38,205 bases of DNA from a virus. The stretch lies in IMG/VR virus record IMGVR_UViG_3300022223_000002, positions 1 through 38,205 of that record. The stretch is one strand, 5' to 3'. Of the stretch, positions 4,249 through 27,496 are shown piece by piece. Every line of letters begins with the position of its first letter. Positions within the stretch are counted from its first letter, which is position 1. The notes beneath the pieces are model-generated. The model saw only the letters and a list, made by a program, of their open reading frames with translations, was not told where the DNA came from and made no database searches. The position numbers and the translations under genes are program-made.

Positions 4249-4275
4249 ATTTTCAGAGAATAGGAGATTTTTTAA

Positions 4276-5013: not shown

Positions 5014-5031
5014 AAATATGATTTAACGGCA

Positions 5032-5054
5032 AGTCCCGGATATTGTCCGGGACT
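5032..5054 (+). terminator. Hairpin between head and tail genes
   Basis: A perfect 9-bp stem (AGTCCCGGA / TCCGGGACT) with a 5-base loop, followed by GCTGTTTTA. The U-tract is short, so this could be a partial intrinsic terminator or an mRNA processing/stability hairpin that lowers tail gene expression relative to head genes. Confidence 0.55.
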
Positions 5055-5072
5055 GCTGTTTTAGGGTTACCT

Positions 5073-5711
5073 ATGGATAAAATTACGATTTGCAATATGG
5101 CCTTAAGATTGTTGGGGGAACCTTCTATAGCCACTCTGGATATCGATAACAACAAAGATCCTACATCTAAAAAAAGTATTCGTAACTGTAATCTTTTTTT
5201 TGATTGCTCACTTGATTTAATTATCAAAAGCTATCGCTGGAAATTTGCGATAAAACGGGCTACGCTGGTTCGGGATACGGTCAATCCTGAATTTGAATGG
5301 GCTTACCAATACCATTTACCCCATGATTGCCTACGCGTTCTTGAAATGCATTGTTATGATATTCCATGGGAGATTGAAGGCCGTCACCTTCTTACCGATT
5401 ACGGAGAGGCCAAGATAAAATATCTCAAGGAAATAACAAACTTGGGAGAAATGGACGTTTATGCGGTAAAGGCGCTTTCTTATGAGCTTGCGGCATCTAT
5501 GGCGGTTTCTCTTCGTGGCGCTAAGGGGCCGCCGGAGGCTGACCGGCTAAAAAAAACATTGATACAACAAATTATTCCAGAAGCCCGTCAGAATCATAGC
5601 CTTGAAAGCAATAAACATGATGTCTATCGAGAAAATGCCGGAGAATGGGTAAGGTCTCGTTTTAGGGGCAGGGATTTTCATTCACGCGTGATTGCCGCTC
5701 CTGTTATCTGA
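5073..5711 (+). CDS. Tail adaptor, T7 gp11-like (tail tubular protein A)
   Basis: A 212-residue head-to-tail adaptor that would form the ring joining portal and nozzle. The N-terminus has the family pattern: ICNMALRLLGE, then an Ile-Leu-Asp-rich turn, then SLDLIIKSYRWKFAIKRATL, matching the usual 'n-A-L-x-x-x-G ... W-x-F-A-x-x-R-a-x-L' signature. I placed the start at ATG 5073, with TTTAGGG 8 bases upstream, rather than at an upstream TTG that would lie inside the preceding hairpin region. Its stop overlaps the nozzle ATG (TGATG), so the two are translationally coupled. Confidence 0.88.
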   Translation: MDKITICNMALRLLGEPSIATLDIDNNKDPTSKKSIRNCNLFFDCSLDLIIKSYRWKFAIKRATLVRDTVNPEFEWAYQYHLPHDCLRVLEMHCYDIPWEIEGRHLLTDYGEAKIKYLKEITNLGEMDVYAVKALSYELAASMAVSLRGAKGPPEADRLKKTLIQQIIPEARQNHSLESNKHDVYRENAGEWVRSRFRGRDFHSRVIAAPVI

Positions 5712-8700
5712 TGCCTAAAAAAACATTATTTTCTTTTGGTAGCGGTGAAGTTACTCCAAGGCTTTTAGGCAGGGTGGATTTTGACCGGTATTTCAATGCC
5801 TGCCAATCTCTTGTCAATTATTTTCTTTATGTTACAGGTGATATTGAATTTAGAGCCGGAACGCAATTAGTCGATAAGGTTGATCCTCAATCAAGCAGGT
5901 CCAGACTTATAGCTTTTGTCTTCAATGTCGATATTGCTTATGTTCTGGAATTCAGTGATTTCGTAATCAGGCTTTACAGAGATGGCGCGTCTCTTAATTA
6001 CGATATCGTATCCCCTTACAGTGATGTTGACCTAAATTCCATAAAATACGCTCAATCTGCGGATGTTATGTATCTTGTGGACGGGATTGGTCCTCCACAG
6101 AAATTGATCCGTCTCGGTGATACCGATTGGACAATTTCTGAACCTGAATTTAAAAACGGTCCCTTTCTGACTGCCAACCTCGATGAATCGTTAAGTTTGA
6201 ATCCTTCTTATCCGTCGTGGGTGGATGCAACGGCATACAAGAAGAATGATATTGTTAACGTAGCAAGTACGGCCATTAATCCTCCGAGTTATTCCACGCA
6301 GAACATTGACAACGCCGCTGCGGTCAATGTCGGCGGCGGGCTGGTTGATATACCGGTTACCGGCCATGGATATTCAGTGGGAATGGCCGTTGAAATTGAA
6401 TTTTCGGTTTCATATGACGGCAATTTTATTGTTCAGGCTGGAACCACGTCGAATTTTATCCGTATTTCGTCAGTATTTACGGCTGAATTTTTTGCCGGGA
6501 CTGAAACTGTAAGAAGAAAGGCTATTCCGGTTGATAAAGGAGCCGGTCTAGTGGGTATCCCTACCAACCCGAATTCTATTGCAATCAATTCCTTTGTTAT
6601 TTTATCCGGTTTTGTCGGGTATAATGCGACTTATACGGTCCACAATTCAAGTACGACTGATGAAATTGTCATTGAGGCGCCCTATGTGGCCGAATATTTT
6701 ACGGGAAGTGAAGTCGTTACGGAATCCATTTTTTATAAATCTTTAACAGATCATACGAGCGGCGGGGGGAATCCGACTCCTCCGGGCAACACTACGGATT
6801 GGACAAAAGCCTTGACCTTTTCGGGTTCAAATCTTGTTATTAATTCTTCTAAAGCCTTTTTTGATATCGGTCATGTCGGCGCATTGTTTAAATTGGTTCA
6901 TCCTAGAATTGATTCCGGTATTCAAGGGAGCTTTACCGCTATAGGGGTCAGTGAATGGATAAGGGTTAGTAAGGGTACGGATTGGAGTTTTATTACCTCA
7001 TCCGTATGGGGCGGGGTCGTTGAACTTCAAAGGTCATACAATGATGGCGCATCGCATGAAATTGTAAAAATTTATAGATCAGAAGGCGCTGCCAACGCCA
7101 GAAACGTTTCCGTTACGGGAACTGAACTGGAAGATAACGCATTATATCGCGTTGCCTTGACTCAATATTTTATTGGGACAATCAGCTATGATTTCAACGT
7201 TGATGATTTCGAAACAGAGGGGATTGTAAAAATAACGGAATTCGTTAGTGATGTACAGGTCAAGGCGGAAGTAAAAACCGCTTTAGGGAATGTGATTGCC
7301 ACGGTTGATTGGTGCGAGGGCGCATGGAGTAAATTTCGCGGGTTCCCGCGTGCCATTACTTTTTATGACAATATGTTGGTTTTTGCCGGGTCTGATCATC
7401 TTGACACAACTATCTGGACAAGTAACCGGAATGATTTTGAAGATTTTCAAACCGGTACTTTGGCGAATCAATCGATTGTCCGCAGGCTGGATGGTGACTT
7501 GATCAACCGCATTGAATGGCTCGCAAGCGGTGAAGATTTAATAATTGGCACCAGTGGCGGGATATGGCGTATGGGGGCCAGTGATAGAAGGGAAATAATG
7601 TCTCCCGTCAATGTCACTCATCGACGTCAAAACAATCTTGGTTCAAGCAGCGCTCAAGGCATCGAGGTAAATAATAGTTTCCTTTATGTTTCAAGAAACG
7701 GTAACAAGATCAATGAGTTAATTTATGATTCAGCCAGTGAGGGTTATGTTGCCGGGGATCTCAACAGGATAAGTGAACATTTAACGGCAGATACTTCCAT
7801 TGTAGAAATTATCTATTCCGAAAAACCCGAACAAGTGATATATTGTCGTCTTGATAATGGCAAAGTCCTTTTGTGTTTCTATCGGAGGGAAGAAAAATTT
7901 GTCGCATGGTCGAGATTTGAAACGGCTGGAAAAATCCTTTCTATGACCGTTGTTCCTATGGGGCGCGAGGATGAGGTATGGTTTATCGCCGATAGAAGCA
8001 ACGGCGTAAGTCAGGCCTGTATTGAGCGGAAAAAATTTCAATCCATTGATTCCGTTACTGACAATATGTATTGGTTTTTGGATTCCGCGCTTGATTTCAA
8101 TGGTTTGAAAGGAATCGAGATCGTTGATATTTCAAGGTCTTTTCCTTGTGAGGTTTTTACGGATATTAATCACGGTCTGTCAAGCAATGATAAGATTAGA
8201 ATATCCGGCGTCAATGGTATGGTTGAAGTCAATGGAACTTATCAGATAAATGTGAGCTCGCCTAAGTCTTTTGAATTATTTCATCATGAAAGCGGCGCTA
8301 TGATCAGTTCTATAAGCTTTTCAGAATATACTGATTCCGGAGAAGTTGAGGTGGTTATCAAAACTATAACGAATCTCAATCATTTAGAAGGGCAGATTGT
8401 CAGTTGCATAGTTGATGGCAGGATTGAAGAAAACAAGATGGTCCAGTCAGGCGTGATAAATCTTGACGGTTATGGGAATAAAATAATTGCCGGTTTGCCC
8501 TATTCCGGAACGGTCAGGACAATGCCTGTCGATTTTCAAGGGGGGCCGCTTCTCGGGCAGTTGTCAAGGATTAGTCGAGCCTCTTTTGTGGTTAGAAAAA
8601 CAGGGGCGTTGTATGTGTGGAATCAGCAGGGGTTTTTTGAGGAAATCAACTTTTATGATCAAGATATAGTTATGGACGAACCGCAAAGCCTGTTTCACGG

Positions 8701-8827
8701 AAATATCGTTTATAATTTCGATGAGGGGTTTCGGTATTCCGTATCAATAGAGCTATCACAGCGGAAACCACTCCCGCAAAACATTCTGGCGATAGCTGTT
8801 GAAGTCGAAATGGGAGAATATAACTAA
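5711..8827 (+). CDS. Tail nozzle, T7 gp12-like (tail tubular protein B), with FCCH-like inserts
   Basis: A 1038-residue nozzle forming the distal tail tube. The N-terminus (SFGSGEVTPRLLGRVDFDRYFNA) and the central blocks TFYDNMLVFAGS, TIWTSNRNDFEDF and GTSGGIWRMG are classic for this family. It is longer than T7 gp12 (794 residues) because of inserts. Residues about 198-271 and 275-345 are two related beta modules of the type H-G-Y-x-x-G ... Y-x-G-x-F/Y-x-V, and residues about 805-880 form another (NHGLSSNDKIRISGVNG), resembling the FCCH domain fold known from E1 enzymes and many phage tail proteins. The first module is nearly identical in DNA to one in the tail fibre. The start overlaps the adaptor stop. 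Confidence 0.9.
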   Translation: MPKKTLFSFGSGEVTPRLLGRVDFDRYFNACQSLVNYFLYVTGDIEFRAGTQLVDKVDPQSSRSRLIAFVFNVDIAYVLEFSDFVIRLYRDGASLNYDIVSPYSDVDLNSIKYAQSADVMYLVDGIGPPQKLIRLGDTDWTISEPEFKNGPFLTANLDESLSLNPSYPSWVDATAYKKNDIVNVASTAINPPSYSTQNIDNAAAVNVGGGLVDIPVTGHGYSVGMAVEIEFSVSYDGNFIVQAGTTSNFIRISSVFTAEFFAGTETVRRKAIPVDKGAGLVGIPTNPNSIAINSFVILSGFVGYNATYTVHNSSTTDEIVIEAPYVAEYFTGSEVVTESIFYKSLTDHTSGGGNPTPPGNTTDWTKALTFSGSNLVINSSKAFFDIGHVGALFKLVHPRIDSGIQGSFTAIGVSEWIRVSKGTDWSFITSSVWGGVVELQRSYNDGASHEIVKIYRSEGAANARNVSVTGTELEDNALYRVALTQYFIGTISYDFNVDDFETEGIVKITEFVSDVQVKAEVKTALGNVIATVDWCEGAWSKFRGFPRAITFYDNMLVFAGSDHLDTTIWTSNRNDFEDFQTGTLANQSIVRRLDGDLINRIEWLASGEDLIIGTSGGIWRMGASDRREIMSPVNVTHRRQNNLGSSSAQGIEVNNSFLYVSRNGNKINELIYDSASEGYVAGDLNRISEHLTADTSIVEIIYSEKPEQVIYCRLDNGKVLLCFYRREEKFVAWSRFETAGKILSMTVVPMGREDEVWFIADRSNGVSQACIERKKFQSIDSVTDNMYWFLDSALDFNGLKGIEIVDISRSFPCEVFTDINHGLSSNDKIRISGVNGMVEVNGTYQINVSSPKSFELFHHESGAMISSISFSEYTDSGEVEVVIKTITNLNHLEGQIVSCIVDGRIEENKMVQSGVINLDGYGNKIIAGLPYSGTVRTMPVDFQGGPLLGQLSRISRASFVVRKTGALYVWNQQGFFEEINFYDQDIVMDEPQSLFHGNIVYNFDEGFRYSVSIELSQRKPLPQNILAIAVEVEMGEYN
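6308..6373 (+). repeat. 66-bp segment shared with the tail fibre gene
   Basis: This stretch matches 20096-20161 at 60 of 66 bases in the same orientation and frame, including a 29-base identical core (6332-6360 and 20120-20148). It encodes the front of an FCCH-like beta module in the nozzle. The DNA identity is higher than the identity of the rest of the module, which points to recent copying or gene conversion. Confidence 0.9.
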
Positions 8828-9231
8828 TGCTTGATGTAATCAAAGATATTTATTTAGATTCGTTTATCGATAATCCTGATGAAAGAATTATGCATCAAAT
8901 AAAAACGGGGGAGTCATGGGCATCCGTAGACAGAATAGACGGAAAATGTTTGCTTATAGGGGGTATGTATCCCTATTGGGCGGGCGTCGCTGAGGCATGG
9001 GTGAAGTTATCGCCTGATTTTTATGATTATAAATTTACCGCCATTAAAGACATTAAAACGGCGATAAAATACGGTGTTTCGGGGCTTGGTCTGCATCGGC
9101 TGCAATCTTTTTGTATAGATGATGAGGTTTATAAAAATTTTCTAGGATTATTGGGATTCAGCCCCGGAGGAAGAATAAGACAATATCTACCTGACGGGTC
9201 AGACGCGATTTTATATGAGATGATTTTCTAA
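8827..9231 (+). CDS. GNAT-like protein of the internal core operon
   Basis: A 134-residue protein that starts by TAATG overlap with the nozzle gene. The pattern GGMYPYWAGVAEAWVKLSPD, then LHRLQSFCIDDEVYKNFLGLLGF, then RQYLPDGSDAILYEM follows the short acetyltransferase-like (GNAT) proteins found after the nozzle in many podoviruses. In T7 the equivalent slot holds gp13, needed for core assembly. Whether it acetylates anything is unknown; the typical acetyl-CoA loop is weak, so a structural or assembly role is equally possible. The next gene starts within its stop codon. Confidence 0.7.
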   Translation: MLDVIKDIYLDSFIDNPDERIMHQIKTGESWASVDRIDGKCLLIGGMYPYWAGVAEAWVKLSPDFYDYKFTAIKDIKTAIKYGVSGLGLHRLQSFCIDDEVYKNFLGLLGFSPGGRIRQYLPDGSDAILYEMIF

Positions 9232-9695
9232 TGCAATACGTAGCAGTAGCAACGGCCGTTGTGGGTGCGGCGGGAAAGGCATTCGGCACAGCCAAACAAG
9301 TTCAGGGGGCCAATGAGGAGGCAAGGCTATCGCGTGAATTCTCTGTTTATGATGCTGATGTTTTAAATCTTGAGGCCAAAAGAGCATTGGAAGCTCGCAT
9401 CGAGGAGGCCAGAATATTTAAAAGGCATGCAAGGCGTATAGAAGCTAGAAATGTCGCCATTAATTCACCTTTGGCGCTGATGGAAGAAAATGAAACGAAT
9501 GCCAGACATACCCAACTTAAAATTTTAAATACAGGGATCGCTGAAAAGGATTCTCTTAAAAGAGAATCTGATTTAACTATCCTCGAGGGGACAATAAATA
9601 GGAAAAGAGCCAAGACAAAAGCAAGGGCGCTTACCATTTCCGGAATTTCTGAGGGGTTGAGTGATTTGTCAGGCCTGGCCGGTCAATTCGGTTAA
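9231..9695 (+). CDS. Internal virion protein, T7 gp14-like
   Basis: A 154-residue protein with a hydrophobic Ala/Val/Gly start (VAVATAVVGAAGKAFGTA) followed by a long charged coiled coil with many Glu, Arg and Ala residues, and a C-terminal helix with GLSDLSGLAGQF. This layout is the one of gp14-like ejection proteins, which leave the capsid first and form the outer-membrane part of the DNA channel in T7. Position after the nozzle and the GNAT-like gene supports the call. It starts by a four-base overlap (TAATG). Confidence 0.75.
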   Translation: MQYVAVATAVVGAAGKAFGTAKQVQGANEEARLSREFSVYDADVLNLEAKRALEARIEEARIFKRHARRIEARNVAINSPLALMEENETNARHTQLKILNTGIAEKDSLKRESDLTILEGTINRKRAKTKARALTISGISEGLSDLSGLAGQFG

Positions 9696-9712
9696 ATTTG
9701 TCAAGGAGATAA

Positions 9713-10102: not shown

Positions 10103-10105
10103 TTC

Positions 10106-11770
10106 ATGCCGACTTTTACTACGCTTGAGCAACAGAATATAAATTCATCAACTCGCGGGCCTTTAATAGGTCAGGATTTAGCCGGAAGGGTGGGGGAAAG
10201 CTTCGATATTTTAGGTCGTGGAATTCGTTCAGCTTCTAACAATGTCGCTCAAGCGGGTAAAAATATCTCGGAATTTGCGCAGAATATGCAGCGTGCCGAG
10301 GATGTCACCGCAGTAAACAATGCGCGGCGTATTTTTAATGAAGATATCGCTAAAAAACTGAATGAACTTGAGACGCGAAACGACTTTGAGAATTTCGAAA
10401 AAGAAATCAATGATAGCTTTTTATCATCGAGGTCGAGGATTTCTACGGATGTTCCCGCATCCAAGGACGGAAAGAACAATATAGACCAGATATTGAAGGA
10501 TATCGAAAGTACTGCAAGGATTGAGCTTGACAGCGTAATTAACCGCAAACGGATAGCCTATTTCGAAACCAGTTACGAAAATAGCCGTTTGTCGGCTGTA
10601 AGAGACGGAGATTTGCCTCTGGCTAATAATCTGACTGTCGAAGCCTTTGACAATCATATTATCAATGACAAAAGAAAGGCCGTCGATATCCAAAAGAATA
10701 CGGAGGAAGTTAATTTTTATGCTGCGCGTGATCATCTTGACCAATTTCCAGATGATATTGATCCGGTTCTGAATGCCTTCCCCGTCAATCGCGAAAACAC
10801 TGATGCCTTAAAAAGATATGCATCAAGTCTTATAGAAAAGCGGAGAAAGGAAAAGCGTGAGAACTTTGATGCCTTCATGGTTCAGGAATTAGCGAATCCG
10901 GATTTCAGTTTACCGCAGATTGAGCAGGTTTTAAATACTATTCATGAAGATCCGGACAACGTGATTGACCCGAAGGGCGTTGAAACATACAGGAATCTTT
11001 TCAGGGAAAAGGCGGCGATAAGAGATAAAACGTTTATTCAAGATGGATATTCGGCCCGAATGATCCGGATAGAAAAGACGGGCGATTTCGATATGGAAAC
11101 TGAACTTGAATTGTTGCAGAACATTCAGGAACGCGGGGCAATGAGCGAGACTCAAATAGAACTGGCTAAAAATCGGTTGACGGAAATTGAAACGATAAAA
11201 AGAAAACAGTTGGCGGATGCCTTGATCTTTGATATTAAAAGATTGAGGGGGACCAATCTGATTTCTAACGGTCAGGCGCAAATTGAATTGCTGGATATTC
11301 TGGCGGAGTTTCCGGCGTCCGTTGACATTTCGACGGCTCAAAAAGCCTTGGCGGAGTTCAAGGACATTTCGCAAGACACCGAAGATCATCGAAAAATGTT
11401 AAAAAGATATTCTCAAGAAGTTCTGGACAGTTTTCCCCCCGGTTCTTTCGGGGAGTTATACGGGGACACGGTTAAGAAATCAAAGGAAAATTATCTGAAG
11501 ATAGGGGAACGGATTCAGGGCGCCAGTGAAAAGGATCGCGTCAAATTATTACGTGCATTCGCTGAAGTTGAAAACGAAAGGCTTAAGCATAGACGGGACA
11601 TGGAAGATTTTATCGAGGACTATATCCGGCTTCACCCCCGGTCAACACGTGAAGAAATCAGAGAGGCTATCCTGAAACGTAGCGCTGCACAACTTGAGAA
11701 AGAGGCTTTTCGTCAGGGAAATATTTTGTGGCGGGCTTTAAAAAGATCTTTAAATTTCTTCAAGCCATGA
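10106..11770 (+). CDS. Internal virion protein, T7 gp15-like
   Basis: A 554-residue, almost wholly alpha-helical, charged protein with long coiled-coil stretches, placed between the gp14-like gene and the giant internal protein. T7 gp15 occupies this position and forms the periplasmic tunnel for DNA ejection. There are no membrane helices and no catalytic motifs. The N-terminus is Gly/Ser rich, then LGRGIRSASNNVAQAGKNIS starts the helices. The stop overlaps the next start (ATGA). The call rests on order, size and composition. Confidence 0.7.
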   Translation: MPTFTTLEQQNINSSTRGPLIGQDLAGRVGESFDILGRGIRSASNNVAQAGKNISEFAQNMQRAEDVTAVNNARRIFNEDIAKKLNELETRNDFENFEKEINDSFLSSRSRISTDVPASKDGKNNIDQILKDIESTARIELDSVINRKRIAYFETSYENSRLSAVRDGDLPLANNLTVEAFDNHIINDKRKAVDIQKNTEEVNFYAARDHLDQFPDDIDPVLNAFPVNRENTDALKRYASSLIEKRRKEKRENFDAFMVQELANPDFSLPQIEQVLNTIHEDPDNVIDPKGVETYRNLFREKAAIRDKTFIQDGYSARMIRIEKTGDFDMETELELLQNIQERGAMSETQIELAKNRLTEIETIKRKQLADALIFDIKRLRGTNLISNGQAQIELLDILAEFPASVDISTAQKALAEFKDISQDTEDHRKMLKRYSQEVLDSFPPGSFGELYGDTVKKSKENYLKIGERIQGASEKDRVKLLRAFAEVENERLKHRRDMEDFIEDYIRLHPRSTREEIREAILKRSAAQLEKEAFRQGNILWRALKRSLNFFKP

Positions 11771-14700
11771 TAGATCAAGAACAATTGACACGCATTATCG
11801 CCGGAGAGTATAACAATTTTGAGATAAAAGCGGCGGAAGCCAGCGGCGATAGAGATAACTGGTTGGCGCGTTATTCTAACAGTGCATATTTAGCGAATTC
11901 CCTCGATGCTGATCCGGAGGGAATTTTCCGCAATTATGACAGTTTTCATAGTAATTATTTCGGAGAAGATATTTCTGTTCCTGAAGCGCTTAACCGGATT
12001 CGGGAAATACAAGGGATCAAACTTGATAGCGGCGGTAATCCTACTTTCTTTGGGGAAACGGCAAAATCTCTGACAAGGGGTACAATCAGTCTGGTTTATG
12101 GCGGGTTTGCCGGTCTGTCGGCGTTGATGGGGAATATACCGAGGACAAAACAACTTTTAGATCAGCAACGGCATATGATTAACACGGTTGCCGTGAATCC
12201 GGAAGTCGCTTCGCGTTTAAAAGAATTCAGGGATAAGGAAGGGGTATTGGCGCAATTGACCACAAGCGACTATTGGTCCACTAAAGGCGCTGAACTGGTT
12301 CCCAGTGTGGCTAGCTTTTTCGTAGGGGGACTAGGAGCGTTTAAAGCTGCGCAACTGGCGTTTAAGGGCAATCAGTTGCTAGCTACTATCGCGGCTGCCG
12401 GTACTCTGAATGTAGCAGAATCCGTCATTGAAGCAGGTGGCGCTGTAGGTGAGGTAAAATTACAGACCGATATGGCTAACCTTGTCATAAAAACAATTGA
12501 AGGCATGGACGAGGAAGAAAGGGATCAAATTTACAATCAAGGCATGGTTGAAGCGTTGAACCATTATAAAATGATAAGCATTCGCGGTGGTTCACCAACT
12601 ATTGCCGGTGAAGTTGCAAGAGAGGTTTTTGTTCGCAACGTGGCTTTGAATGCTATTTTTACTACCTTGGGCTTAGGTTTCGGAAAAATAGCCGTTTCAA
12701 GCCTGTTTTCAGGGACCGGAAAACGGCGACTCGTTACCGCTGTTCTTGCAAGTGGAGGTGCCGCGGTTACCGAACCTGAACAAGAATTGCGTCAGGAAGA
12801 AATCACCGATTCGGTTGTTTACCGCGAGCTATTCAATCAGGCCATTGATAGTAATGTTTTATCGATCCGTATACTGCAAGCAATTCTGTCAGACAATAAT
12901 GATAAGAAAGACACGGCGCTTGCCGCATTTCTGATGGGGAGCCACAATATTTTATTCGGTTTCGCTACAGAAGTTTCTTTATCCAAGTCTATGCTCGCGG
13001 CGGAAAAGAAAATGTCCGAATATATCGAAAAGCTACGGGCCGAACTGGCAAAAAGAAAAGCGGCAAAAAAAGGAGCTGGTACGTCTGGCAGTGGAGGAGC
13101 GAGCCTTGGTTCCGAGTCTCCGCAGGGTGGAGGCGACACTAAAGCCGCGCCAGCTCCATCTTTATTTCCGTCTCAAAAAGTTGACAGTGATTCGGAAGAT
13201 ATCCCCCCTCAAAAAAAACCGTCAAAACCGGCTGTGGGAATCCAAACGCCTCTGGATGTTTTGAAAAATGAGCAGATAGAAACATTGATAGAAAACTATG
13301 ACAAGGCCAAGACCACGGAGGAACGTGTTCAATCATTTCAAAAAATCGCATCCGAAATGATTGATGCCAATGCGAAAACGCTAGATGCGGATTTAGAAAT
13401 AGAGGTTCAGGAACGCAAGATTTTTGAGCAGGAAAGAAAAAAGTCTCTTCGGGATTTGGCGACGATTAAAAAAGCCTTGGAGGAATTGACGCCGTTAGAT
13501 CAATTCCGCGACGAAATAAGAAGATCAGGATTGCAGACTAGGGGAATAGAAGAGTTTAAGAATCTTTCTCCCGTATTTCGTAAAAAAGACGGTTTAACGT
13601 TTGATCAAGCCTTGCAGCGTGCGGAAGAGTTAAATTTAGTCGAGCCGGGCGAGAGTGATCCGGCGGCGTTGTTTGAGTTGCTCAAGGGGACCGTTGAAAA
13701 GAAAAAGCCTCCGAAACTTTTGGGAGAATTAGAGCCGGGGGACGTATTTATCGACGAAGGGGGGCTACAGATAACGCATCTTGGATTTGATAAAGGCGGC
13801 AAGGTTTTTCTTGATGTAGAAGGGCAATTGGTTTCCGAGAGCGTAAATAAGCTGGTGCCGGCGGAGACTCGAAAAGCGAGGAGTGAAGAAATTGAATCCT
13901 TGATTGCGGAATATGGAGACATTGTCGAGCTTAATCCAACTCCTACGGAACCGATTTCACCGGCTCGGCAAAAAAATCTTGAAAAGTTGGGAATAGAGAA
14001 GCCGGGCCTCGATGATGAATTTGGCTTTGACGCTGAGGACCAATTATTATTTAAAGAGAATGATCCTTATATAGGAAAAGATGTTCGAGAGGATATCACG
14101 GATAAACAGAAAGAACTCGGGAAGGAGGCTTATAATGATTGGGTAAAGGCTACTAAAAGGATTATAGGTGAAGCCGGCAAAAAGTTAGGTATCAACGTTC
14201 TTGGCAGCGCTATTAACAAGGATTTTATTGTTGATGGGACTACTAGTTTTGTCGGAAAAAAAATAAGGTCCATCCATGATTTGCCGGTTATGGCTCAAAT
14301 TTTTAGAGATCCGCGTTGGGAGACTTTGCGTGTTTTTTATTTAAAGAACAATACGATTGTAGGAGAAAATGTAATCAGTTCCAGATTGCCCTGGTTGGTT
14401 AGTTTCTCTGATTCGGATTTCAGCATAATAGATGATCAATTAAAGAAAACGGGCGCGGATAGGATTTATTTATTGCATAATCATCCTACAGGCAATCCTA
14501 ATCCGTCGCAAGCTGACCTTGAATCATCCGCTAAGTTTAAAAAAAGATTTCCTAAAGAATATCAAGGCGAATTCATTATTGATTCTGGATCATATGTCAG
14601 GTTGATTCCTCCCAGACGTTCTAATTATTTCAGGTATGAGCCTGACGGGAAGGATGTCAAGGTTGACTGGCATCATCTTAAGGATGAAACAAGCGGAACT

Positions 14701-17700
14701 CTTGTTTTTGATAAAAGCGAAGTTGATAATCCTTTATTGGGTCAGGTTTTGCAAGATAGTGAAGCGTTTGTCGCTATGGGTAAAGCATTGCAGGTCAAGG
14801 ACGGTTATGGGGCCATTATAGGATTGGATTCTCTTGGCGCTGTCAGGACGATACTTGAGGTCCCGGACAAGTTGTTACTTGAAAAAGAAACCGCATCATC
14901 AATAAGGTATCTCGGATTATTGAGAAAAGCGGCGCGGGAGACGGGGACCGATAGTGTTTATCTTGTAACTCCATCTCATGTTTCTTCCTATAAGCATTTA
15001 TTTAAGACCGGAATTTTTGATGACATGATATCTTTTGCGGGAATAACCGTAGAAGATAAATTCAAGAGTTTCAATCCTGGAATTCCTTTATCTAAATTAC
15101 AAAAAAAGGGGGCGCAAATCCGGAGAGCTTCGACGCCCGAAGAAATCGATCCTTACGAAAACAAGGATGTAAGGGAAGGCACCACCGAAGACAACAAGAA
15201 AACTGGAAAGTTTGCCTATAATGATTGGGTAAAGGCCAGTAAAAGAATTCTCGGTGTACATGGAAAAAGGTTTGGAATCAACCTTATTGCAAGTGCTATA
15301 AACAGGGATTTCGTCTCTCAGGGAAGTACAAGTTTTATCGGTAAGGAAATTGATTCCGTGGAAGATCTGGCGGTAATGGCTCAGGTTTTTCGTGATCCAA
15401 GATTTGAAACTTTACGGGTGTTTTATTTGAAAAATGGAGTCGTTGCCGGTGAGGATGTCATCAGTTCAAGGCTACCCAATAGGGTCAATTTTTTGATTCG
15501 TGATATTGATTTTATCAAAAGAAAGCTAAGAGATTTAGAGGCTGACAAGATTTACTTATTACATAATCATCCTAGCGGGAAGTCAACCCCTTCACGAGAT
15601 GACATTAGGGCAACTCAGGCTTGGATTAAGGAAATTAAAGAATTTGAAGCCCATGTGGTTATTAACTCAGGGGAATATTCGGTAATAAAAGAATCCGATA
15701 GGGTGGAAGGATTCGTGGAAAGCTCTACCGAAAAAATCAGCGGTCCCTTGGCCGGTTCACTTGTTGGCAACAAAAGCGAAGTTCCTCACGAATTGCTGGG
15801 GCGGCAGTTAGATTTTGAGCAGGATTTTATATCGGTTGGCAATTCGTTAAAAGTCAAAGACGGGTACGGGGTTATTTTCGGTGTGGATGCGAAAAATAAA
15901 ATCCGTTTAATTACAGAAGTTCCAGACAGTGTTTTGGCTGAAAAAGAGAGCAAGAATCTAGACAAATATCTTGTGATGATGCGAAAAGCTTCTCGTGAAA
16001 CTGGAGTGACTGGTTTTCATTTAGTTACGCCTAGGTCTCTCACTAATTACCGTCATCTTCTGAATGCTAAAATTTTCAGGGATTCTGTTTCTATGGGGGG
16101 GGTAGAAAGTGCATTTCAAATGGGTTTTATGCAGGGAAGTATACCAAGGAGCAGTCGCGAAAATACTAACGCTCCAGCGCAATTTCGCGAACCTACCACC
16201 GAAGAAATTGAACAGGATATTATCGCGGCGGCGGCAAGATTTTTTTTCCTTGGAAAGGTTATGCCTTTGCAGAAAATACGTGACGAATTAAAACGTCATG
16301 GAATTCCCATAGAAAAAGCTAAGTTTCTACAGAATGAGGGAAAGCGTCTCGGTCAACAGATCGTTGACGATGCCTCCAGTCTTCCAGATATAAAAAGCCT
16401 CAAGAAATTATTCGAAAACAAGGAGGAGGAAATTTTCAAAAGGGGTTTCAAAGCCGGTGAATTCACCGAAAGGGCGCGGCGTAATCTCAAGGAATCAAGA
16501 GAAAAAGAAAAGGTGGCCAAGCGTGAATTGCGGGGCGAAAAAATACGCCAACAGCTTGTCGAAGAAAAAAAGAATATCCGCAAGCATTGGTCGCAACGTA
16601 TGCAAAATGCGGATGAACTGGAAAAGGCGGCAAGGCAGTTTATTAAAGAAAACAAAATTCCTCAAGAAGTACGGGGACAGCTTATAGCTTCCATAGCTAG
16701 ATTGTTTAAAATTGAAGATCCGGCGATTCAGAGACGGCAATTTGAATGGATTATCACTAAGGCTCTGGACTTGAAACATCAGGTGTTGAAGCGTGAAGCC
16801 TTATTCAAGATAAACAAGAAGATCTCTAATGCCTTAAAGGAAAGATTTAGTAAGTCGAGAATTAAAACGGGTCCACTAGGTCAGGTTGAGGATTATTTAA
16901 AATCGGTTATCCAATATATCAAGCTTGAGCCCGCGGAACATGAAAAGGCCATGAAAGGCTTGGAGTCTGTCATTTCAAAACTTAAAGATGAGGGTGATTA
17001 CGACAAGGCTTTTGAGCTGGAAAAGCAACTCGTTGACCTTGATATATTCGGGAATTTACAGGATCGCACTTATATAGAGGTGGAAAGGGCGCTTAGTACG
17101 CTTAATCATGATCTGCAGGGTAAAAGGCTTGAAAGGTACAGGTTTATTGAGGACAGATTGATAAGGTATGATTTGAATCGTGCGAAGATTATCGCGAATT
17201 ACGGGGAGGTTTCGGCAATAGACTTCGAGTTCTGGCGGAAAGATCAAAATAAAACGCCGAAACAAAAATTTTTCGCCAATGCATGGAGATATATGGACGC
17301 CCATTTAAGCATGGAGCAGAAATTGGAACGCATCGCGCATTTTGATAGAACCGGCTATTTGACGAAAATGGTAGATCAGTGGCGCCAATGGATTTGGACA
17401 GCAAGTCAGAAAGAACAAACCTTAACCAGAAATGAAAAAAGCCTGTTTGATGAAGCGGCAAAAAGAATATGGAATCTTCCTGACGAAAACAGGAAAGGTA
17501 AAATTCTTCTCGGACTTAATAATGCTGACAAAAAACTTGCGGAATTATCAACAAAAACCATCGTGATTACGGGCGAGGTGAACGGGGTTACGCGCAAACG
17601 AACGGTGAGTTATGACGTCGCCTTGAAAATTTATCTTACGTTAATGCAACCGGACTTAATGCCCAATATGAATGAGCATGGTTTCGATACGCTTACCCGT

Positions 17701-19206
17701 CTTGAAATATTAAACAAGCTTCCAGATGAGGTTTTGCAATTAGGTGACTGGATGATCCGTAGAATGTCATTTCAATACAATGAATTGAATGAGATTTACA
17801 CGGAACTTTTCGGCGCTTATATGCCGCAGAATATGAATTATTTCCCCTTTGCCGTTTCGCAGGCCAATAGATCGAGCGAATTTGATCCGGAACGAAACAG
17901 GGGTGCAATGAATATGAACAGTATGGCCTATCCGGGCAGTATAAGGGCGAGGGTTCCACATAAATTGCCTATTGATATAAGTCGTGGCGCTATAGCAGAA
18001 TACTTGCATCATCAACACGCAATGGCCAGATTCAAGGCGTTTGCTCTCGGCGCGAAAGATTTTCATGGAATATTTGCAGATCCCGGGGTGCAGCGCAGCC
18101 TAAAGGTGAATCTTGGCGAAGATTTTTACAATGACCTTTTGCGGCATGCCAGTGAGGTTGTTTCAGGTGGGAATGAATGGTTCGTTTATAATGAAAATAT
18201 GAACCGGTTGAAAAATACTGTAGTCTATTCAAAGCTGGGATTAAATTTTGCTACGTTTTCGGCTCAGCTAGCCTCTTTCCCGGGTCTGGCTATGAATCTT
18301 AAATGGTCTGATGTTTTCAAGGAAATCGTCAGGGGGTTCAAAGCGATTAATGATCCGGAAGTGAGAGAGGAATTTATGAGAGTACTGCGTACGGATTATG
18401 TAAAAAACCGCTGGGAAGGCGGTGCCCACATCGAGGCTATGTGGGTGCTTGAAAATTCCCGTACTCGCGGTTTCTGGGGTACAGCCGCAAGGGCATCATT
18501 GCTCCCTACAAGGGCAGGGGATTTAGTGCCTATTCTGGTCATGGGCAGGGTTTTATATAATCATGCTTTTAATGAGGCCAAGGCGCTTGGATGGTCTGAT
18601 GCGGCAGCCCATTCGCATGCGGAATATGTTTTCGGTTCCATGACGGATTCAAATCAGCAAAGCAGTCAATGGAAAGACCGTACTTTATGGCAGAGAAAAG
18701 GAACCTTTGGAGAGGTTCTTAGTATGTTTCAGACTTCGCCAAGGCAATATTTTACCGCCTCTTTGATGGCTGTCAGACGGGCGGCGGCTTTAAAAACTCC
18801 GGAATCAAGACTGTATGCGGCTAAGGTTGCTTTTACTATGTTTGTCTTGATGCCGGTCTTTTTTATGTTTGCCAAGGATTTTTATAAATTCATAATTCTA
18901 GGCAATGATGATGATAGGGAAGCTGGCGAGGTGGTCAGGGATTATCTTGCAGGGATATTATCTTCACCGTTTATGGGGCTTGTCGGTCTTAGTATTATTG
19001 CTGATGATGCGGCCAGGCTTCTTGTCGGACGCAGACGTTTTTTTGACAGCGCGGATATTGCGGCATTATCGCTGCATGATGACATATTAAGGCTTTTGAA
19101 TGCTGGTTATCTTACAGCTTCGGGCGAAGACGGGGAATTGGTGAAAAATGTTCTGTATACTTTTCCGGCGTTGAAACAAGGCAAGGAATTTGTAATAAGG
19201 GAATAA
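11767..19206 (+). CDS. Giant internal virion / polyvalent protein with two RadC-like JAMM units
   Basis: A 2479-residue protein in the T7 gp16 slot, probably packaged and ejected with the DNA. I start it at ATG 11767, which overlaps the previous stop (ATGA); a GTG at 11728 lies inside that gene. Hydrophobic segments lie near residues 106-122, 180-215 and 290-325 and again at 2355-2380. A Gly/Ser/Pro linker covers 434-466. Residues 766-1127 and 1128-about 1480 are tandem copies offset by exactly 362 residues. Each has a full JAMM set: E867, H904, H906, S914, D917 and E1229, H1266, H1268, S1276, D1279, in the RadC-like form HNHP-T/S-G. A coiled coil lies at about 1558-1615. The C-terminal 450 residues resemble the conserved ends of giant podovirus ejection proteins. 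No lytic transglycosylase domain is seen. Confidence 0.85.
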   Translation: MIDQEQLTRIIAGEYNNFEIKAAEASGDRDNWLARYSNSAYLANSLDADPEGIFRNYDSFHSNYFGEDISVPEALNRIREIQGIKLDSGGNPTFFGETAKSLTRGTISLVYGGFAGLSALMGNIPRTKQLLDQQRHMINTVAVNPEVASRLKEFRDKEGVLAQLTTSDYWSTKGAELVPSVASFFVGGLGAFKAAQLAFKGNQLLATIAAAGTLNVAESVIEAGGAVGEVKLQTDMANLVIKTIEGMDEEERDQIYNQGMVEALNHYKMISIRGGSPTIAGEVAREVFVRNVALNAIFTTLGLGFGKIAVSSLFSGTGKRRLVTAVLASGGAAVTEPEQELRQEEITDSVVYRELFNQAIDSNVLSIRILQAILSDNNDKKDTALAAFLMGSHNILFGFATEVSLSKSMLAAEKKMSEYIEKLRAELAKRKAAKKGAGTSGSGGASLGSESPQGGGDTKAAPAPSLFPSQKVDSDSEDIPPQKKPSKPAVGIQTPLDVLKNEQIETLIENYDKAKTTEERVQSFQKIASEMIDANAKTLDADLEIEVQERKIFEQERKKSLRDLATIKKALEELTPLDQFRDEIRRSGLQTRGIEEFKNLSPVFRKKDGLTFDQALQRAEELNLVEPGESDPAALFELLKGTVEKKKPPKLLGELEPGDVFIDEGGLQITHLGFDKGGKVFLDVEGQLVSESVNKLVPAETRKARSEEIESLIAEYGDIVELNPTPTEPISPARQKNLEKLGIEKPGLDDEFGFDAEDQLLFKENDPYIGKDVREDITDKQKELGKEAYNDWVKATKRIIGEAGKKLGINVLGSAINKDFIVDGTTSFVGKKIRSIHDLPVMAQIFRDPRWETLRVFYLKNNTIVGENVISSRLPWLVSFSDSDFSIIDDQLKKTGADRIYLLHNHPTGNPNPSQADLESSAKFKKRFPKEYQGEFIIDSGSYVRLIPPRRSNYFRYEPDGKDVKVDWHHLKDETSGTLVFDKSEVDNPLLGQVLQDSEAFVAMGKALQVKDGYGAIIGLDSLGAVRTILEVPDKLLLEKETASSIRYLGLLRKAARETGTDSVYLVTPSHVSSYKHLFKTGIFDDMISFAGITVEDKFKSFNPGIPLSKLQKKGAQIRRASTPEEIDPYENKDVREGTTEDNKKTGKFAYNDWVKASKRILGVHGKRFGINLIASAINRDFVSQGSTSFIGKEIDSVEDLAVMAQVFRDPRFETLRVFYLKNGVVAGEDVISSRLPNRVNFLIRDIDFIKRKLRDLEADKIYLLHNHPSGKSTPSRDDIRATQAWIKEIKEFEAHVVINSGEYSVIKESDRVEGFVESSTEKISGPLAGSLVGNKSEVPHELLGRQLDFEQDFISVGNSLKVKDGYGVIFGVDAKNKIRLITEVPDSVLAEKESKNLDKYLVMMRKASRETGVTGFHLVTPRSLTNYRHLLNAKIFRDSVSMGGVESAFQMGFMQGSIPRSSRENTNAPAQFREPTTEEIEQDIIAAAARFFFLGKVMPLQKIRDELKRHGIPIEKAKFLQNEGKRLGQQIVDDASSLPDIKSLKKLFENKEEEIFKRGFKAGEFTERARRNLKESREKEKVAKRELRGEKIRQQLVEEKKNIRKHWSQRMQNADELEKAARQFIKENKIPQEVRGQLIASIARLFKIEDPAIQRRQFEWIITKALDLKHQVLKREALFKINKKISNALKERFSKSRIKTGPLGQVEDYLKSVIQYIKLEPAEHEKAMKGLESVISKLKDEGDYDKAFELEKQLVDLDIFGNLQDRTYIEVERALSTLNHDLQGKRLERYRFIEDRLIRYDLNRAKIIANYGEVSAIDFEFWRKDQNKTPKQKFFANAWRYMDAHLSMEQKLERIAHFDRTGYLTKMVDQWRQWIWTASQKEQTLTRNEKSLFDEAAKRIWNLPDENRKGKILLGLNNADKKLAELSTKTIVITGEVNGVTRKRTVSYDVALKIYLTLMQPDLMPNMNEHGFDTLTRLEILNKLPDEVLQLGDWMIRRMSFQYNELNEIYTELFGAYMPQNMNYFPFAVSQANRSSEFDPERNRGAMNMNSMAYPGSIRARVPHKLPIDISRGAIAEYLHHQHAMARFKAFALGAKDFHGIFADPGVQRSLKVNLGEDFYNDLLRHASEVVSGGNEWFVYNENMNRLKNTVVYSKLGLNFATFSAQLASFPGLAMNLKWSDVFKEIVRGFKAINDPEVREEFMRVLRTDYVKNRWEGGAHIEAMWVLENSRTRGFWGTAARASLLPTRAGDLVPILVMGRVLYNHAFNEAKALGWSDAAAHSHAEYVFGSMTDSNQQSSQWKDRTLWQRKGTFGEVLSMFQTSPRQYFTASLMAVRRAAALKTPESRLYAAKVAFTMFVLMPVFFMFAKDFYKFIILGNDDDREAGEVVRDYLAGILSSPFMGLVGLSIIADDAARLLVGRRRFFDSADIAALSLHDDILRLLNAGYLTASGEDGELVKNVLYTFPALKQGKEFVIRE

Positions 19207-19222: not shown

Positions 19223-22200
19223 ATGACGATATCAAGTATTGAAAGTACTAAAAAATTTTATGTTCTGGACGGTGCTAAAAGGAGTTTCTTTTATGATGTT
19301 CCCTTTTCTCACAAAGATGACATTGTTTTAACGCTTGTAACTTTGAGCACAAGCGAAGAAATCATTTTAGACCACCCCCTGCATTATAGTATTTTTGCGG
19401 AAAATGATGATTATGGTTCAGGCGCTACGGTTACCACGGTTACGGCTTATCCGTCAACCCAAAAGCTTGTGATTCACCGGGACACTATAAGACAACAAAT
19501 CGTCGATCTTACAGAGTCCGCGAAAATACCATCAAGGGCCATAGAAGATGGATTGGATAATCTTGAAAGGCAGATTCAAGATATATGGACATTTCTTGAA
19601 AGGGTTATCAAGGTTGCGGTAGGGGACTCATTGGCGTCTACAGACTTTTCCGGCGCTGCGGTTCGTGCGGGTAAGCAATTAACTTTTGACGAAAATGGAT
19701 TACCGCAATTTACGATTCCTGATCCAAATCAATTGGATGGTCAAAACTCAATTGAAAGGCTGGGTAATTTTTTCAAGTTAGTCGGTGATCTTGCGAGTGT
19801 TCCCGCCTCATACTATTATGGCACGAATGTTCTACAGGAATTGAGCTTCTTTTCTCTTCCTGTAGCCAATATAAAAAATGTCACCTATGTAAGTGAACAG
19901 GGAACTCTTGCCGCAGCCCAAGCGGATTCGGCCGCAAACAATTATCGTCCTATCCTTGTAGATGCGGATATTTCCATTGATGCGGCGTCCGTTTTTGATA
20001 CTACGGGGACGGTTATTGATGCCTCTGGAACTCCTGTCAATATGTTCAATGCTACTGTTCAGCCTCCTGCCATCGAAAATTCCAAGCAGTTTTTAGACAA
20101 TGCCGCTGCGGTCGATATAGGCGGCGGGCTGGTTGATATACCGGTTACGGGCCATGGTTATGTTCCCGGCCATACAATCAGATTTTTTAACACTATCAAT
20201 TATGATAATAAAACTTACACGGTACAGGCGGGGACGACGACCGATCTTGTCAGGATTTCCGAAACGTATACGGCGGAATCTTTCGCCGGAACTGAGGAGG
20301 TTACTTTTTATGATGCCAACATGTTGTATGAAGGGGTTTTCCCGATTGATCATTTTATTAATCCAACGGGGGTTATCGAGACTGAACCGGGCGGGGCTGG
20401 CAGTGATATTAAAAAAATCACGGTGACAGACAATCCTTTTGCCGAAAACAGATTGATTGCCGTTTCTGGAAGTACGGGCGGGGTTAGGGACAAGATTTAT
20501 CGCGTTCTTCCGGGGTCTACTTCTACGGGGATTCTGATTAAGGAAAGCGGATCGGCTTACACGTGGACCGGAAGTGAAAAAATCGTACCGCAGCGCCGGT
20601 ATGAAATAAAGAATCCGACTGCGGGAGTCGCGGTTAAAACTCGAGGAACGGATAGGGTTGGAATTCGTTTAGACAATCACGATCTGCGGATTGGTCAATG
20701 GGTATCGCTGAGGCTGTTTTCCGATGCTGCGCTAAATGGGGAGTTTATGGTTCAGCCGGGTACTACGCGAACAGAATTTTATGTTAAGGCTACCTTGACG
20801 GCCGGGGTATTTAATCAAACGGGAAATGAACAGTTTTGCGAGGCGAGTTCTTATGCTATAGATAGAAGATTCCGGCGGGAGTTGGGCATAAATAAGGCGC
20901 TTACCTCTCTTGATGCGGGTGTTGCTACCGGTGTAGATTGTCCGTCTTATAGTCTTAAGGAAGATGATCCGATAACTATTGAAGGTAGCGGCGTTGCCGG
21001 TTTAGATGGCAATTATCTGGTATTACCATGGAGAGGAAATGCGGGCGTACTTCCCATTAATAAAGCCTTTGGTGCGGGTGGAACGGTTACCGGCGGTTAT
21101 GTTTTTAAGCAAGCGTTTTTTGGTTTGCCTGTAATCTCTAATGATTTTGTCGAGGATACCCAATTCGAAGTAACAGGAACCACAAATTATAATCAGGATT
21201 ATATTTCCAGTTTTCTGACGGAAAGCACTAACGGCGGTTGGTCTGAGGTGGTGGCTCCCGGGAATTGGGCGCAAGAACAGTTCACCAGCTCGGCAAAGGT
21301 CTACAGAAAATTCGCAAGGTTTGATTTAGCGGCTCACGGGTTAAATGTCGGCGATTGGATAGAAATCGAAAACGATTCTAATTATAACGGTATTTATGAG
21401 GTGTTCATAAAAACTACCAATTCTTTTTATATAAGAGCAAGGGGGGTCGGCCCAACAAACGGGAGTTGCACAGTTAAATTACTCCTGCGGCAAATTTCAA
21501 CGATAGATGATCATAACGTCAATCTTTATGAAGAGTTTTTTATTCGTGATGTTGCGGGGTTCGAAGGAAGGTTCAAGGCCAAGACCGGGACTTCGGGAAA
21601 AAACCTTGTCTTCAATAGCCCTACGGCGGTTGGCGCAAGCGCATCGGCGGGAAAGGTCGGAAAGACGTCGGTTACGATTTCAGGCAATCACAGCTTTGTT
21701 TTTCTTGATAATAATTCAAGGTTTGTATTCGGCGCTTATATTACGGCCAGTTTTGCCAGTGGCATAAAATTGCATGCTACTGATGAACAGGCGATTTTTA
21801 AAATGGAAAAAGATGATATGGCGCTTGCGGATAGAACCAAGGTCATTTATAAAGATATAGGCATGCAAAGTCATGTTTTGCATTGGGGCGCAATAAATGT
21901 TGATAATGTAGCGCATGATCAGGTAACGGGTAATGCCTGTAAGCATGCATGGAATACAGCTTCTGACAGTGGATGTCGTCTTATTTTCGGGCGTGGTACT
22001 TACCGTCAGGGATTTACGCTTGCAGAAGGCGTAAACGTCGATAAACTAACAACTAATGCTATTACGGGTGTCAGCTCGAGACAAACATTGTGGAGACTCG
22101 GGGCGTGGGTCAATGATGGCATCTTTCGCTCCAAGTCAAATAACTGGCATAATGCGCTTGTTGAAAAAATGGATTTTCAGGGCAATAGGTTTGTCAATAG

Positions 22201-23707
22201 AAATACGCCATACAATATCGGGTGTATTACTATGGAAGGCTATAATTTTTCTTTTCGAGATATTCATGTATCAGAATATCCCCAAATAGGACTGAGGTTC
22301 AACGGGGGGCAAAGTAACGGCGTAAATCTTTTTAATGCTGAAATAGAAGACGGAGATTTTGATAATTGTGTCTTTGTCGGGGTAAATGTTCTGACTTTCT
22401 TCGGTTGCAGCATCGAGCAAGCCAGAACGCTTGAGGGAAGCGGAATCGGTTGCCGTATTATGGGGCTGTCTGGCAGCTATTTTTCCAGCCATGACCAAAA
22501 ATGCACGGTTATCAATAATTACATGGAAGGTGACGACGCGGCCGACTTTGTTTTTGAGGGTGTTTCATACATCAAAATTCTATCATCGAGCAAGGGTACC
22601 GCTGGATCTGATACCGTTCATGTCAGGCGTCATCCTTATCTGGGTTCCCCTTGTAATGATATAGAAATTGACGCCGGTCAATATCCGGGGAGTCAGGTCA
22701 GGATAGACCCGGGGTGCGGAAACGGCGTAAATGTCGTTTATCCGCATGGAACGCAGGGGGGGGTGACTACCGTTATAGATAAAAGCCGTAATGTCAAGCC
22801 CGGAAAAAAAGGCCTTAATCCATGGTCCGTAGAAATTAAAAAAGGAAAATACGGAACTACTTTTTTTAATAATTCTCATCCGTGTTTTGGGGCGGGCGCA
22901 TCAGTGCTCGAGCCTTTTGGCGACGGTTCCGTAATCTGGAAAAACGGGATAATTCTACCAGAAAAATTTTGTTATATCGATATAAATACCAGTACGGCTA
23001 TCAATGATTATACAAGGTGGCAAACGAGTTCAAACAAGGATGTTGTTTTTTCCGGAATCGCGTTGGCTGCCGGTACTTATTATTTAAGATTATTGTGCAA
23101 TATCCCTCCAAATTATCAAATGCAGGTTCAGGCCACTGATACGGGGAATAGTCTTTATTATAATTGGGAAGAACAATGCTGGGACTCTGATATATTGAAA
23201 GAGAATCATAGATTGAGAATGGGTGGTTGGGGTATTCCTGAATTGCTGGCGACGTGGCCGGTGGTGACAACGGTAACCAGAACGATCTCCTTTAAATTGG
23301 CTCTTAATTCAAGTGATAATAAAATAGCCATTATCCAGTATTGGGATGTTACCGACTCGATTGATTCAACGCTTGTACATAAGCGGGATGGTCAGGTTAT
23401 CGGGTATGGTTTCGATGACCAATGGGCGGTTGTAGAATATACAGGTGGACCGCAAACTTTGAACTACTGGCAACGGACAGTTTTTTATGATGCAACAGGC
23501 GGTGCTTTCCAAGTCAATCTTCCACCTACATTTAATGATGGGGGTGAAATTCATTTTGTGGAGATTGGCGGGTCCGCGAACAATTTAACCGTTGGTCGTA
23601 ATGGTAACGAAATAGAAGGTCTCGGCACTAGCAATGACGTTTTAAGCACGGCATATTTAAAAACGGCTTATACTTTTAATGCCGCAAATGGAAAATGGGT
23701 AAAATAG
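19223..23707 (+). CDS. Tail fibre / tailspike with T7-type anchor and beta-helix
   Basis: A 1494-residue receptor-binding protein. Residues 1-135 match the T7 gp17-type anchor: an F-Y-D-V-P-F motif, an ILDHPLHYSIF strand, LVIHRDTIRQQIVDLTES, and AIEDGLDNLERQIQDIW. Residues 290-850 hold a string of FCCH-like beta modules (HGYVPGHT, NHDLRIGQW, AAHGLNVGDW and others). Residues about 890-1190 look like a right-handed parallel beta-helix with short repeated strands and N/G turns (FGRGTYRQGFTLAEG onward), the fold of polysaccharide-degrading tailspikes. The last 300 residues are beta-rich and end with NGNEIEGLG. The start has a GGGAG site about 10 bases upstream. Enzyme activity is not provable from the sequence. 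Confidence 0.87.
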   Translation: MTISSIESTKKFYVLDGAKRSFFYDVPFSHKDDIVLTLVTLSTSEEIILDHPLHYSIFAENDDYGSGATVTTVTAYPSTQKLVIHRDTIRQQIVDLTESAKIPSRAIEDGLDNLERQIQDIWTFLERVIKVAVGDSLASTDFSGAAVRAGKQLTFDENGLPQFTIPDPNQLDGQNSIERLGNFFKLVGDLASVPASYYYGTNVLQELSFFSLPVANIKNVTYVSEQGTLAAAQADSAANNYRPILVDADISIDAASVFDTTGTVIDASGTPVNMFNATVQPPAIENSKQFLDNAAAVDIGGGLVDIPVTGHGYVPGHTIRFFNTINYDNKTYTVQAGTTTDLVRISETYTAESFAGTEEVTFYDANMLYEGVFPIDHFINPTGVIETEPGGAGSDIKKITVTDNPFAENRLIAVSGSTGGVRDKIYRVLPGSTSTGILIKESGSAYTWTGSEKIVPQRRYEIKNPTAGVAVKTRGTDRVGIRLDNHDLRIGQWVSLRLFSDAALNGEFMVQPGTTRTEFYVKATLTAGVFNQTGNEQFCEASSYAIDRRFRRELGINKALTSLDAGVATGVDCPSYSLKEDDPITIEGSGVAGLDGNYLVLPWRGNAGVLPINKAFGAGGTVTGGYVFKQAFFGLPVISNDFVEDTQFEVTGTTNYNQDYISSFLTESTNGGWSEVVAPGNWAQEQFTSSAKVYRKFARFDLAAHGLNVGDWIEIENDSNYNGIYEVFIKTTNSFYIRARGVGPTNGSCTVKLLLRQISTIDDHNVNLYEEFFIRDVAGFEGRFKAKTGTSGKNLVFNSPTAVGASASAGKVGKTSVTISGNHSFVFLDNNSRFVFGAYITASFASGIKLHATDEQAIFKMEKDDMALADRTKVIYKDIGMQSHVLHWGAINVDNVAHDQVTGNACKHAWNTASDSGCRLIFGRGTYRQGFTLAEGVNVDKLTTNAITGVSSRQTLWRLGAWVNDGIFRSKSNNWHNALVEKMDFQGNRFVNRNTPYNIGCITMEGYNFSFRDIHVSEYPQIGLRFNGGQSNGVNLFNAEIEDGDFDNCVFVGVNVLTFFGCSIEQARTLEGSGIGCRIMGLSGSYFSSHDQKCTVINNYMEGDDAADFVFEGVSYIKILSSSKGTAGSDTVHVRRHPYLGSPCNDIEIDAGQYPGSQVRIDPGCGNGVNVVYPHGTQGGVTTVIDKSRNVKPGKKGLNPWSVEIKKGKYGTTFFNNSHPCFGAGASVLEPFGDGSVIWKNGIILPEKFCYIDINTSTAINDYTRWQTSSNKDVVFSGIALAAGTYYLRLLCNIPPNYQMQVQATDTGNSLYYNWEEQCWDSDILKENHRLRMGGWGIPELLATWPVVTTVTRTISFKLALNSSDNKIAIIQYWDVTDSIDSTLVHKRDGQVIGYGFDDQWAVVEYTGGPQTLNYWQRTVFYDATGGAFQVNLPPTFNDGGEIHFVEIGGSANNLTVGRNGNEIEGLGTSNDVLSTAYLKTAYTFNAANGKWVK
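20096..20161 (+). repeat. 66-bp segment shared with the nozzle gene
   Basis: This is the partner of 6308-6373, with 60 of 66 bases identical and the same reading frame. It lies at the front of the first FCCH-like module of the fibre. Confidence 0.9.
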
Positions 23708-27467: not shown

Positions 27468-27496
27468 ACTATGCAATCACTAAAACCGATTGTCAA
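27468..27496 (-). promoter_or_regulatory. Sigma-70-like promoter for the antisense RNA
   Basis: Reading the - strand: TTGACA, 17 bases, CATAGT. The -35 is a perfect consensus and the -10 matches four of six bases. It lies over the first codons of rep and points away from them, into the leader. Confidence 0.5.

Follow-up and report, generated by a model that had tools for sequence, protein, structure and literature searches.

Two JAMM modules in a giant phage protein

The window analyzed here is the whole stretch of 38,205 nucleotides in IMG/VR virus record IMGVR_UViG_3300022223_000002 (positions 1 to 38,205). It encodes a giant protein of 2,479 amino acids (11767..19206), classed as an internal or ejection-type polyvalent protein, which carries in its middle two consecutive modules with RadC-type JAMM domains. 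All features described below lie on the + strand. The giant is located between open reading frames (ORFs) resembling internal virion proteins and a tail fibre ORF. Its frame is open from 11728, where a GTG is found, to 19206. The likely start is the ATG at 11767, which forms a four-base ATGA overlap with the stop of the preceding gene. Residues are numbered from this ATG, as in an earlier preliminary description of the locus; numbers in the translation P0001 are higher by 13.

The preliminary description had placed two units of 362 residues at 14053-16110. The tandem is real, with the motifs HNHPTG and HNHPSG exactly 362 residues apart (P0001 positions 917 and 1279, or 904 and 1266 in the numbering used here), although the units are better delimited as 14053..15138 and 15139..16221. 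They share 163 identities over 351 aligned residues (46%), and each combines an active-type RadC/JAMM domain with a degenerate JAMM domain. The Pfam family RadC (PF04002) matches the giant in two stretches that enclose both HNHP motifs (E 5e-16; 59.1 bits against a curated cut-off of 22.1). The active-type (MPN+-like) domains span 14257..14640 in unit 1, with approximate boundaries set by Pfam RadC, profile hidden Markov models and homology to the modelled unit 2, and 15343..15735 in unit 2, where model residues 69-199 match the RadC structure 2qlc.

Judged from sequence, the JAMM signature of a Glu followed by HxH(P)...S..D is complete in both copies. The HNHPTG..PS..D motif of copy 1 (H904, H906, S914, D917) lies at 14476..14517 and the HNHPSG..PS..D motif of copy 2 (H1266, H1268, S1276, D1279) at 15562..15603, as previously described. 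The Glu had to be reassigned. E867 and E1229 (GENVISSR/GEDVISSR), named previously, occupy a column in which just 17 of 110 viral homologues have Glu. The putative catalytic residues are instead E852 (P0001 E865; 14320..14322; RDPRWETL) and E1214 (P0001 E1227; 15406..15408; RDPRFETL). This column is Glu in 110/110 viral homologues, a set assembled independently of the Glu, and in 114/114 non-redundant class-I modules including genome loci, which were picked with a pattern containing it. In the model, the first core strand has this Glu at its N-terminus, where the catalytic Glu of RadC-like domains has been described (PMC11981726). The two His residues and the Asp of each copy are likewise invariant, and the Ser (S914/S1276) is present in 113/114 modules.

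The AlphaFold2 model of unit 2, built with 43 aligned sequences, reached a predicted local distance difference test score (pLDDT) of 83.8 and a predicted template-modelling score of 0.76; with the two units alone as the alignment, pLDDT was 43.8. In this model of unit 2, the first domain is a RadC-type JAMM fold. It superimposes on RadC 2qlc with Z 14.5 and a root-mean-square deviation of 2.2 over 118/124 residues, and Foldseek agreed that RadC is the nearest fold. Further matches were PfJAMM1 (Z 9.7), AMSH (8.7) and BubCD 9ea4 (8.3), followed by a bacterial ubiquitin-like protein (Ubl) deubiquitinase (8tyx, 7.3) and Cap3 (9ild, 7.2); values below about 8 carry little weight alone, and a lower Z is compatible with a deconjugase. 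The RadC/JAMM fold of the preliminary description is borne out, with RadC (Z 14.5) nearer than BubCD (8.3) and Cap3 (7.2).

The second domain of about 110 residues recognized previously in each unit (DGYGAIIGLD, 14728..15057, approximate boundaries; DGYGVIFGVD, 15790..16116) directly follows the JAMM domain throughout the related giants. Both are supported by hhalign, the second also by element order in the model. On profile evidence, it is a catalytically dead relative of JAMM, similar to MPN- domains. Non-overlapping profiles of the two domains (102 + 102 domains) aligned with a probability of 92 and a score of 40.3 over 76 columns, whereas the best of 60 controls (one reversed, 59 column-permuted) scored 17.2. 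Both domains show the identical element order H-E-E-H-E-H-E-E in the unit 2 model. As the structural matches cover model residues 69-199, the assignment of the second-domain fold is based on this order and the profile comparison. Zinc ligands are missing from the second domain in a 41-row alignment, and in 99/102 second domains an HxH is absent from the entire domain. The architecture would therefore be an active JAMM followed by a dead JAMM, twice over. At another locus, L015, the JAMM domain and its dead partner lie in two overlapping frames (4817-11719 and 2614-4878), pointing to a frameshift or sequencing error within the module.

Conservation and duplication of the modules

Any test of metal-site conservation depends on how homologues are collected. 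A first set was fetched by the HNHP pattern and is unusable as a test of the His residues. The later search was seeded with HNHP or the Glu motif, and homologues were recovered with a degenerate HNHP pattern and an eight-row profile. Among untruncated, distinct modules recognized by the Glu motif, HNHP and the Asp are present in 122/122 and the exact full motif in 119/122, within a collection limited to loci that resemble the query by tblastn. Free loss of the catalytic His and Asp, which the preliminary description had named as evidence against its proposal, was looked for among these homologues, and both are retained throughout.

The two copies in the window differ at 0.52 nonsynonymous substitutions per site (dN), with synonymous divergence (dS) saturated and not computable; 16/59 four-fold degenerate sites are identical. 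It follows that the copies are old and that purifying selection has acted on both, leaving the site complete in each. They form a sister clade with a Shimodaira-Hasegawa-like approximate likelihood ratio (SH-aLRT) support of 100, so the duplication is the window's own and lineage-specific. They are 46% identical to each other and at most 30% identical to other modules.

Of 275 JAMM-bearing ORFs, six hold a complete class-I module twice (one in the window, two from Acidovorax and three from Thauera), a minimum count given that some loci are incomplete; a further locus, L055, has two motifs of a different class. The His of a GH[VI].ID motif is found in 109/114 modules, and Glu replaces it solely in tandems, namely in copy 1 of the window (P0001 E948; 14569..14571), at a position that is mostly His in homologues, and in the second copy of Thauera tandems (L125 and L138). 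This exchange hints at specialization after duplication, on the strength of two events only.

Gene neighbourhood and relatives

The gene order of the window is that of a T7-like podovirus: portal, scaffold, capsid, tubes A and B, internal proteins, giant and fibre. The portal or head-tail adaptor (13..1593) matches phrog_332 (E 4e-88), the major head protein (3310..4248) phrog_3437 (E 4e-49), tail tube protein B (5711..8827) phrog_376 (E 5e-153; 204 phage records) and the terminase large subunit (36356..37726) phrog_6672 (E 2e-19). An internal virion protein (9231..9695) is weakly matched by phrog_418 (E 0.0036), a family also present at the corresponding place in the related locus L088 (E 1e-31). 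It is followed by an ORF of 554 residues at a gp15-like position (10106..11770), which lies between it and the giant and has no family match. The tail fibre or spike-like ORF directly after the giant (19223..23707) likewise has no family match. This order agrees with the previous view of the giant as an internal virion protein, as its position corresponds to the internal-virion-protein block of T7-like phages.

Several further features of the window were observed. The ORF at the scaffold position (2149-3129) has an N-terminal GGQQG(D/E) repeat resembling collagen-like tail proteins. The tail-tube-B protein (5711-8827) and the fibre-like protein (19223-23707) have a ~70-residue module in common (DNAAAV..GGGLVDIPVTGHGY...VQAGTT...FAGTE.V). 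The small ORF after tail tube B (8827-9231) has relatives in L088 and L055, and an acetyltransferase is annotated at the matching place in the record of Pelagibacter phage Greip. An RPA-like replication initiator (PF10134), RecT (PF03837) and a DUF3799 nuclease-like protein, at 27471-28349 and 32384-34233, accompany the T7-like virion block.

The same architecture was sought elsewhere, and the module is present in other phage-type giants. L088 is syntenic with the window: tube A, tube B, internal virion protein and an ORF of 526 residues precede a giant with RelA/SpoT, ddrB-ParB and RadC domains. Another locus, L003, encodes a giant of 3,442 residues with ART and RadC domains near a major head protein. 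RadC was found in 18/18 class-I giants scanned, some of which also contain ddrB-ParB, LPD38, ART-PolyVal, PBECR5, InPase, RelA/SpoT or helicase domains. Modules of JAMM and dead JAMM are also numerous in bacterial genomes, including those of Nitrosomonas, Thauera and Acidovorax. The pair can be free-standing, as in a JAB protein (about 368 residues) encoded by a conjugative plasmid of Nitrosomonas and in a frame of 346 residues at L016. The plasmid copy (L281, 9030-13053; NZ_CP133084.1) comes after a gene for a zincin-like metallopeptidase, with relaxase and coupling-protein genes nearby.

Searches by tblastn with the tandem, the L088 unit and the L122 unit returned zero matches in 50,697 GenBank phage records. 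The module is therefore almost invisible by sequence in deposited phage genomes. A structure search of predicted viral proteins returned deposited entries spanning the whole pair, under the name “RadC-like JAB domain containing protein”. In the account of polyvalent proteins by Iyer et al. 2017, RadC was restricted to those of conjugative elements (PMC5512222). Our sequence comparisons extend this to predicted polyvalent proteins of phage type, where RadC occurs widely, accompanied by a pseudo-JAMM domain and also as tandem copies. The preliminary description knew of no published link for such a protein; this holds for the tandem architecture in the literature searched, whereas RadC in polyvalent invasion proteins was already on record (PMC5512222).

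Candidate functions

The giant can be compared with several known systems. RadC of Chlorobium tepidum (PF04002; 2qlc) has the same JAMM fold and the E + HxHPxG..PS..D signature, whereas here the domain lies within a giant phage protein, is backed by a dead JAMM copy and is duplicated. JAMM domains are also found in phage tail proteins of the lambda gpK type (phrog_5556), to which profile similarity is weak (E 3e-5). In the tail-tip protein gpK, JAMM is joined to NlpC, and no NlpC partner is present here. A catalytic JAMM is paired with a dead JAMM-fold domain in the MPN+/MPN- pairs Rpn11-Rpn8, CSN5-CSN6 and BRCC36-Abraxas. In eukaryotic complexes, inactive MPN subunits scaffold active ones or position the substrate for them. 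By contrast, the pair described here lies in one chain (in cis) and is of RadC type, and function is carried over by analogy only. Cap3 of the type II cyclic-oligonucleotide-based antiphage signalling system (CBASS) and the Ubl-deconjugases of BilB/BubD type have the JAMM fold and catalytic signature in common with it (Z 7.2-8.3), but they are clearly more distant than RadC and serve the bacterium rather than the phage. The phage and plasmid polyvalent proteins of Iyer et al. 2017 (PMC5512222) are likewise very large and encoded in the virion gene block, and relatives of the giant contain ART, ddrB-ParB, LPD38, RelA/SpoT, InPase and PBECR5 domains.

We favour, with a probability of roughly 60%, the explanation that the giant delivers a catalytically competent RadC-type metalloenzyme at entry, with a dead JAMM in cis, which acts on a host target. 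The giant, encoded where T7-like podoviruses have gp16, would be a polyvalent protein, with the duplicated two-domain module in its middle packaged in the virion and ejected with the DNA. In the first minutes of infection, the module would hydrolyse its host target and so favour establishment. Action this early fits a conserved metal-dependent enzyme that shares entry-type phage and plasmid proteins with other invasion domains. By analogy, the dead domain would most likely act as a scaffold or position the substrate for its active neighbour. As substrates, (iso)peptide bonds appear likelier than nucleic acid; JAMM precedent favours the former and the published argument on RadC the latter. The analysis itself shows the fold and signature, the duplication, the selection on both copies, the distribution of the family and the synteny; activity, substrate, a role of the dead domain as partner, packaging and ejection are all steps that we infer.

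Several considerations weigh against this explanation. We know of no RadC-type JAMM domain with a demonstrated substrate, and the catalytic activity of the module is read from its signature, as packaging and ejection are from gene order. In a Pfam scan, RadC is the only recognizable enzyme domain within the giant itself, such that polyvalency is seen in its relatives. For RadC, Iyer et al. 2017 prefer a role in the processing of nucleic acids or nucleotides (PMC5512222).

The module may accordingly be an enzyme that processes invading or host DNA or nucleotides rather than proteins, a doubtful but serious alternative. We know of no JAMM domain that is a nuclease. The published prediction for RadC of polyvalent proteins (PMC5512222) speaks for this role, as do the helicase, methylase and ddrB-ParB domains that co-occur in the same giants, whereas a DALI search published in 2025 for a RadC-like domain gave metalloproteases and zero nucleases (PMC11981726). 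It is also possible, if unlikely, that upon entry the JAMM domains strip the ubiquitin-like tags that type II CBASS or Bil attach, be they on CD-NTases or on virion proteins. Such tag systems are patchy in distribution, in contrast to the very widespread module family, and general family scans of the window ORFs recognized no Ubl gene, E1/E2 or ubiquitin-like partner. The signature is intact in both copies, and the structural likeness to BubCD (Z 8.3), the bacterial Ubl-deubiquitinase (7.3) and Cap3 (7.2) extends to enzymes of which the Cap3 type deconjugates cGAS (PMC10097602). RadC is nevertheless far closer in fold (Z 14.5), and its clade has been argued to lack a groove for the ubiquitin tail (Iyer et al. 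2017, PMC5512222). As to substrate, therefore, the preliminary description, which proposed removal of defence tags, outran the evidence. A broader proposal, that cis-linked active/dead JAMM pairs ejected by phages are a widespread early counter-defence deconjugase with duplicated units specialized for different tags, is more speculative and improbable. The specialization is suggested because one copy alone swaps the near-invariant His for Glu in two independent tandems. Direct precedent for phage-encoded JAMM or RadC counter-defence was absent from the literature searched, a search that mostly excluded subscription papers.

Two remaining explanations require no host target. The JAMM domains could free units by cleaving the giant itself or virion proteins next to it, either while the particle assembles or once ejection has taken place. 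Two enzymes midway along a long chain are compatible with such self-processing, and Iyer et al. propose that metallopeptidase domains process polyvalent proteins (PMC5512222). The peptidase they propose is of zincin type rather than RadC, however, and the free-standing modules of the plasmid protein and L016 have no chain to release; we regard this role as quite improbable. Still less credible, indeed highly improbable, is that the JAMM folds are structural spacers in the ejection conduit with merely inherited residues. The alternation of dead with active-type copies indicates that the fold is used without catalysis. Against this, the zinc-site residues are invariant (122/122) while modules diverge to ~20-30% identity, and both window copies keep the site despite saturated silent sites.

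If the broader proposal of early tag removal does prove true, virions would carry a “deubiquitinase-like” arm directed at bacterial immunity that works by conjugation. Independently of substrate, the published confinement of RadC to polyvalent proteins of conjugative elements needs revision. RadC-type JAMM domains occur widely among bacteria, and a form with a near-absolutely conserved metal site and a dead copy is now recognized by sequence in well over a hundred entry-type proteins of phages and plasmids. The question of the RadC substrate thus becomes testable in a simple setting, using phage whose zinc site is either intact or disrupted.

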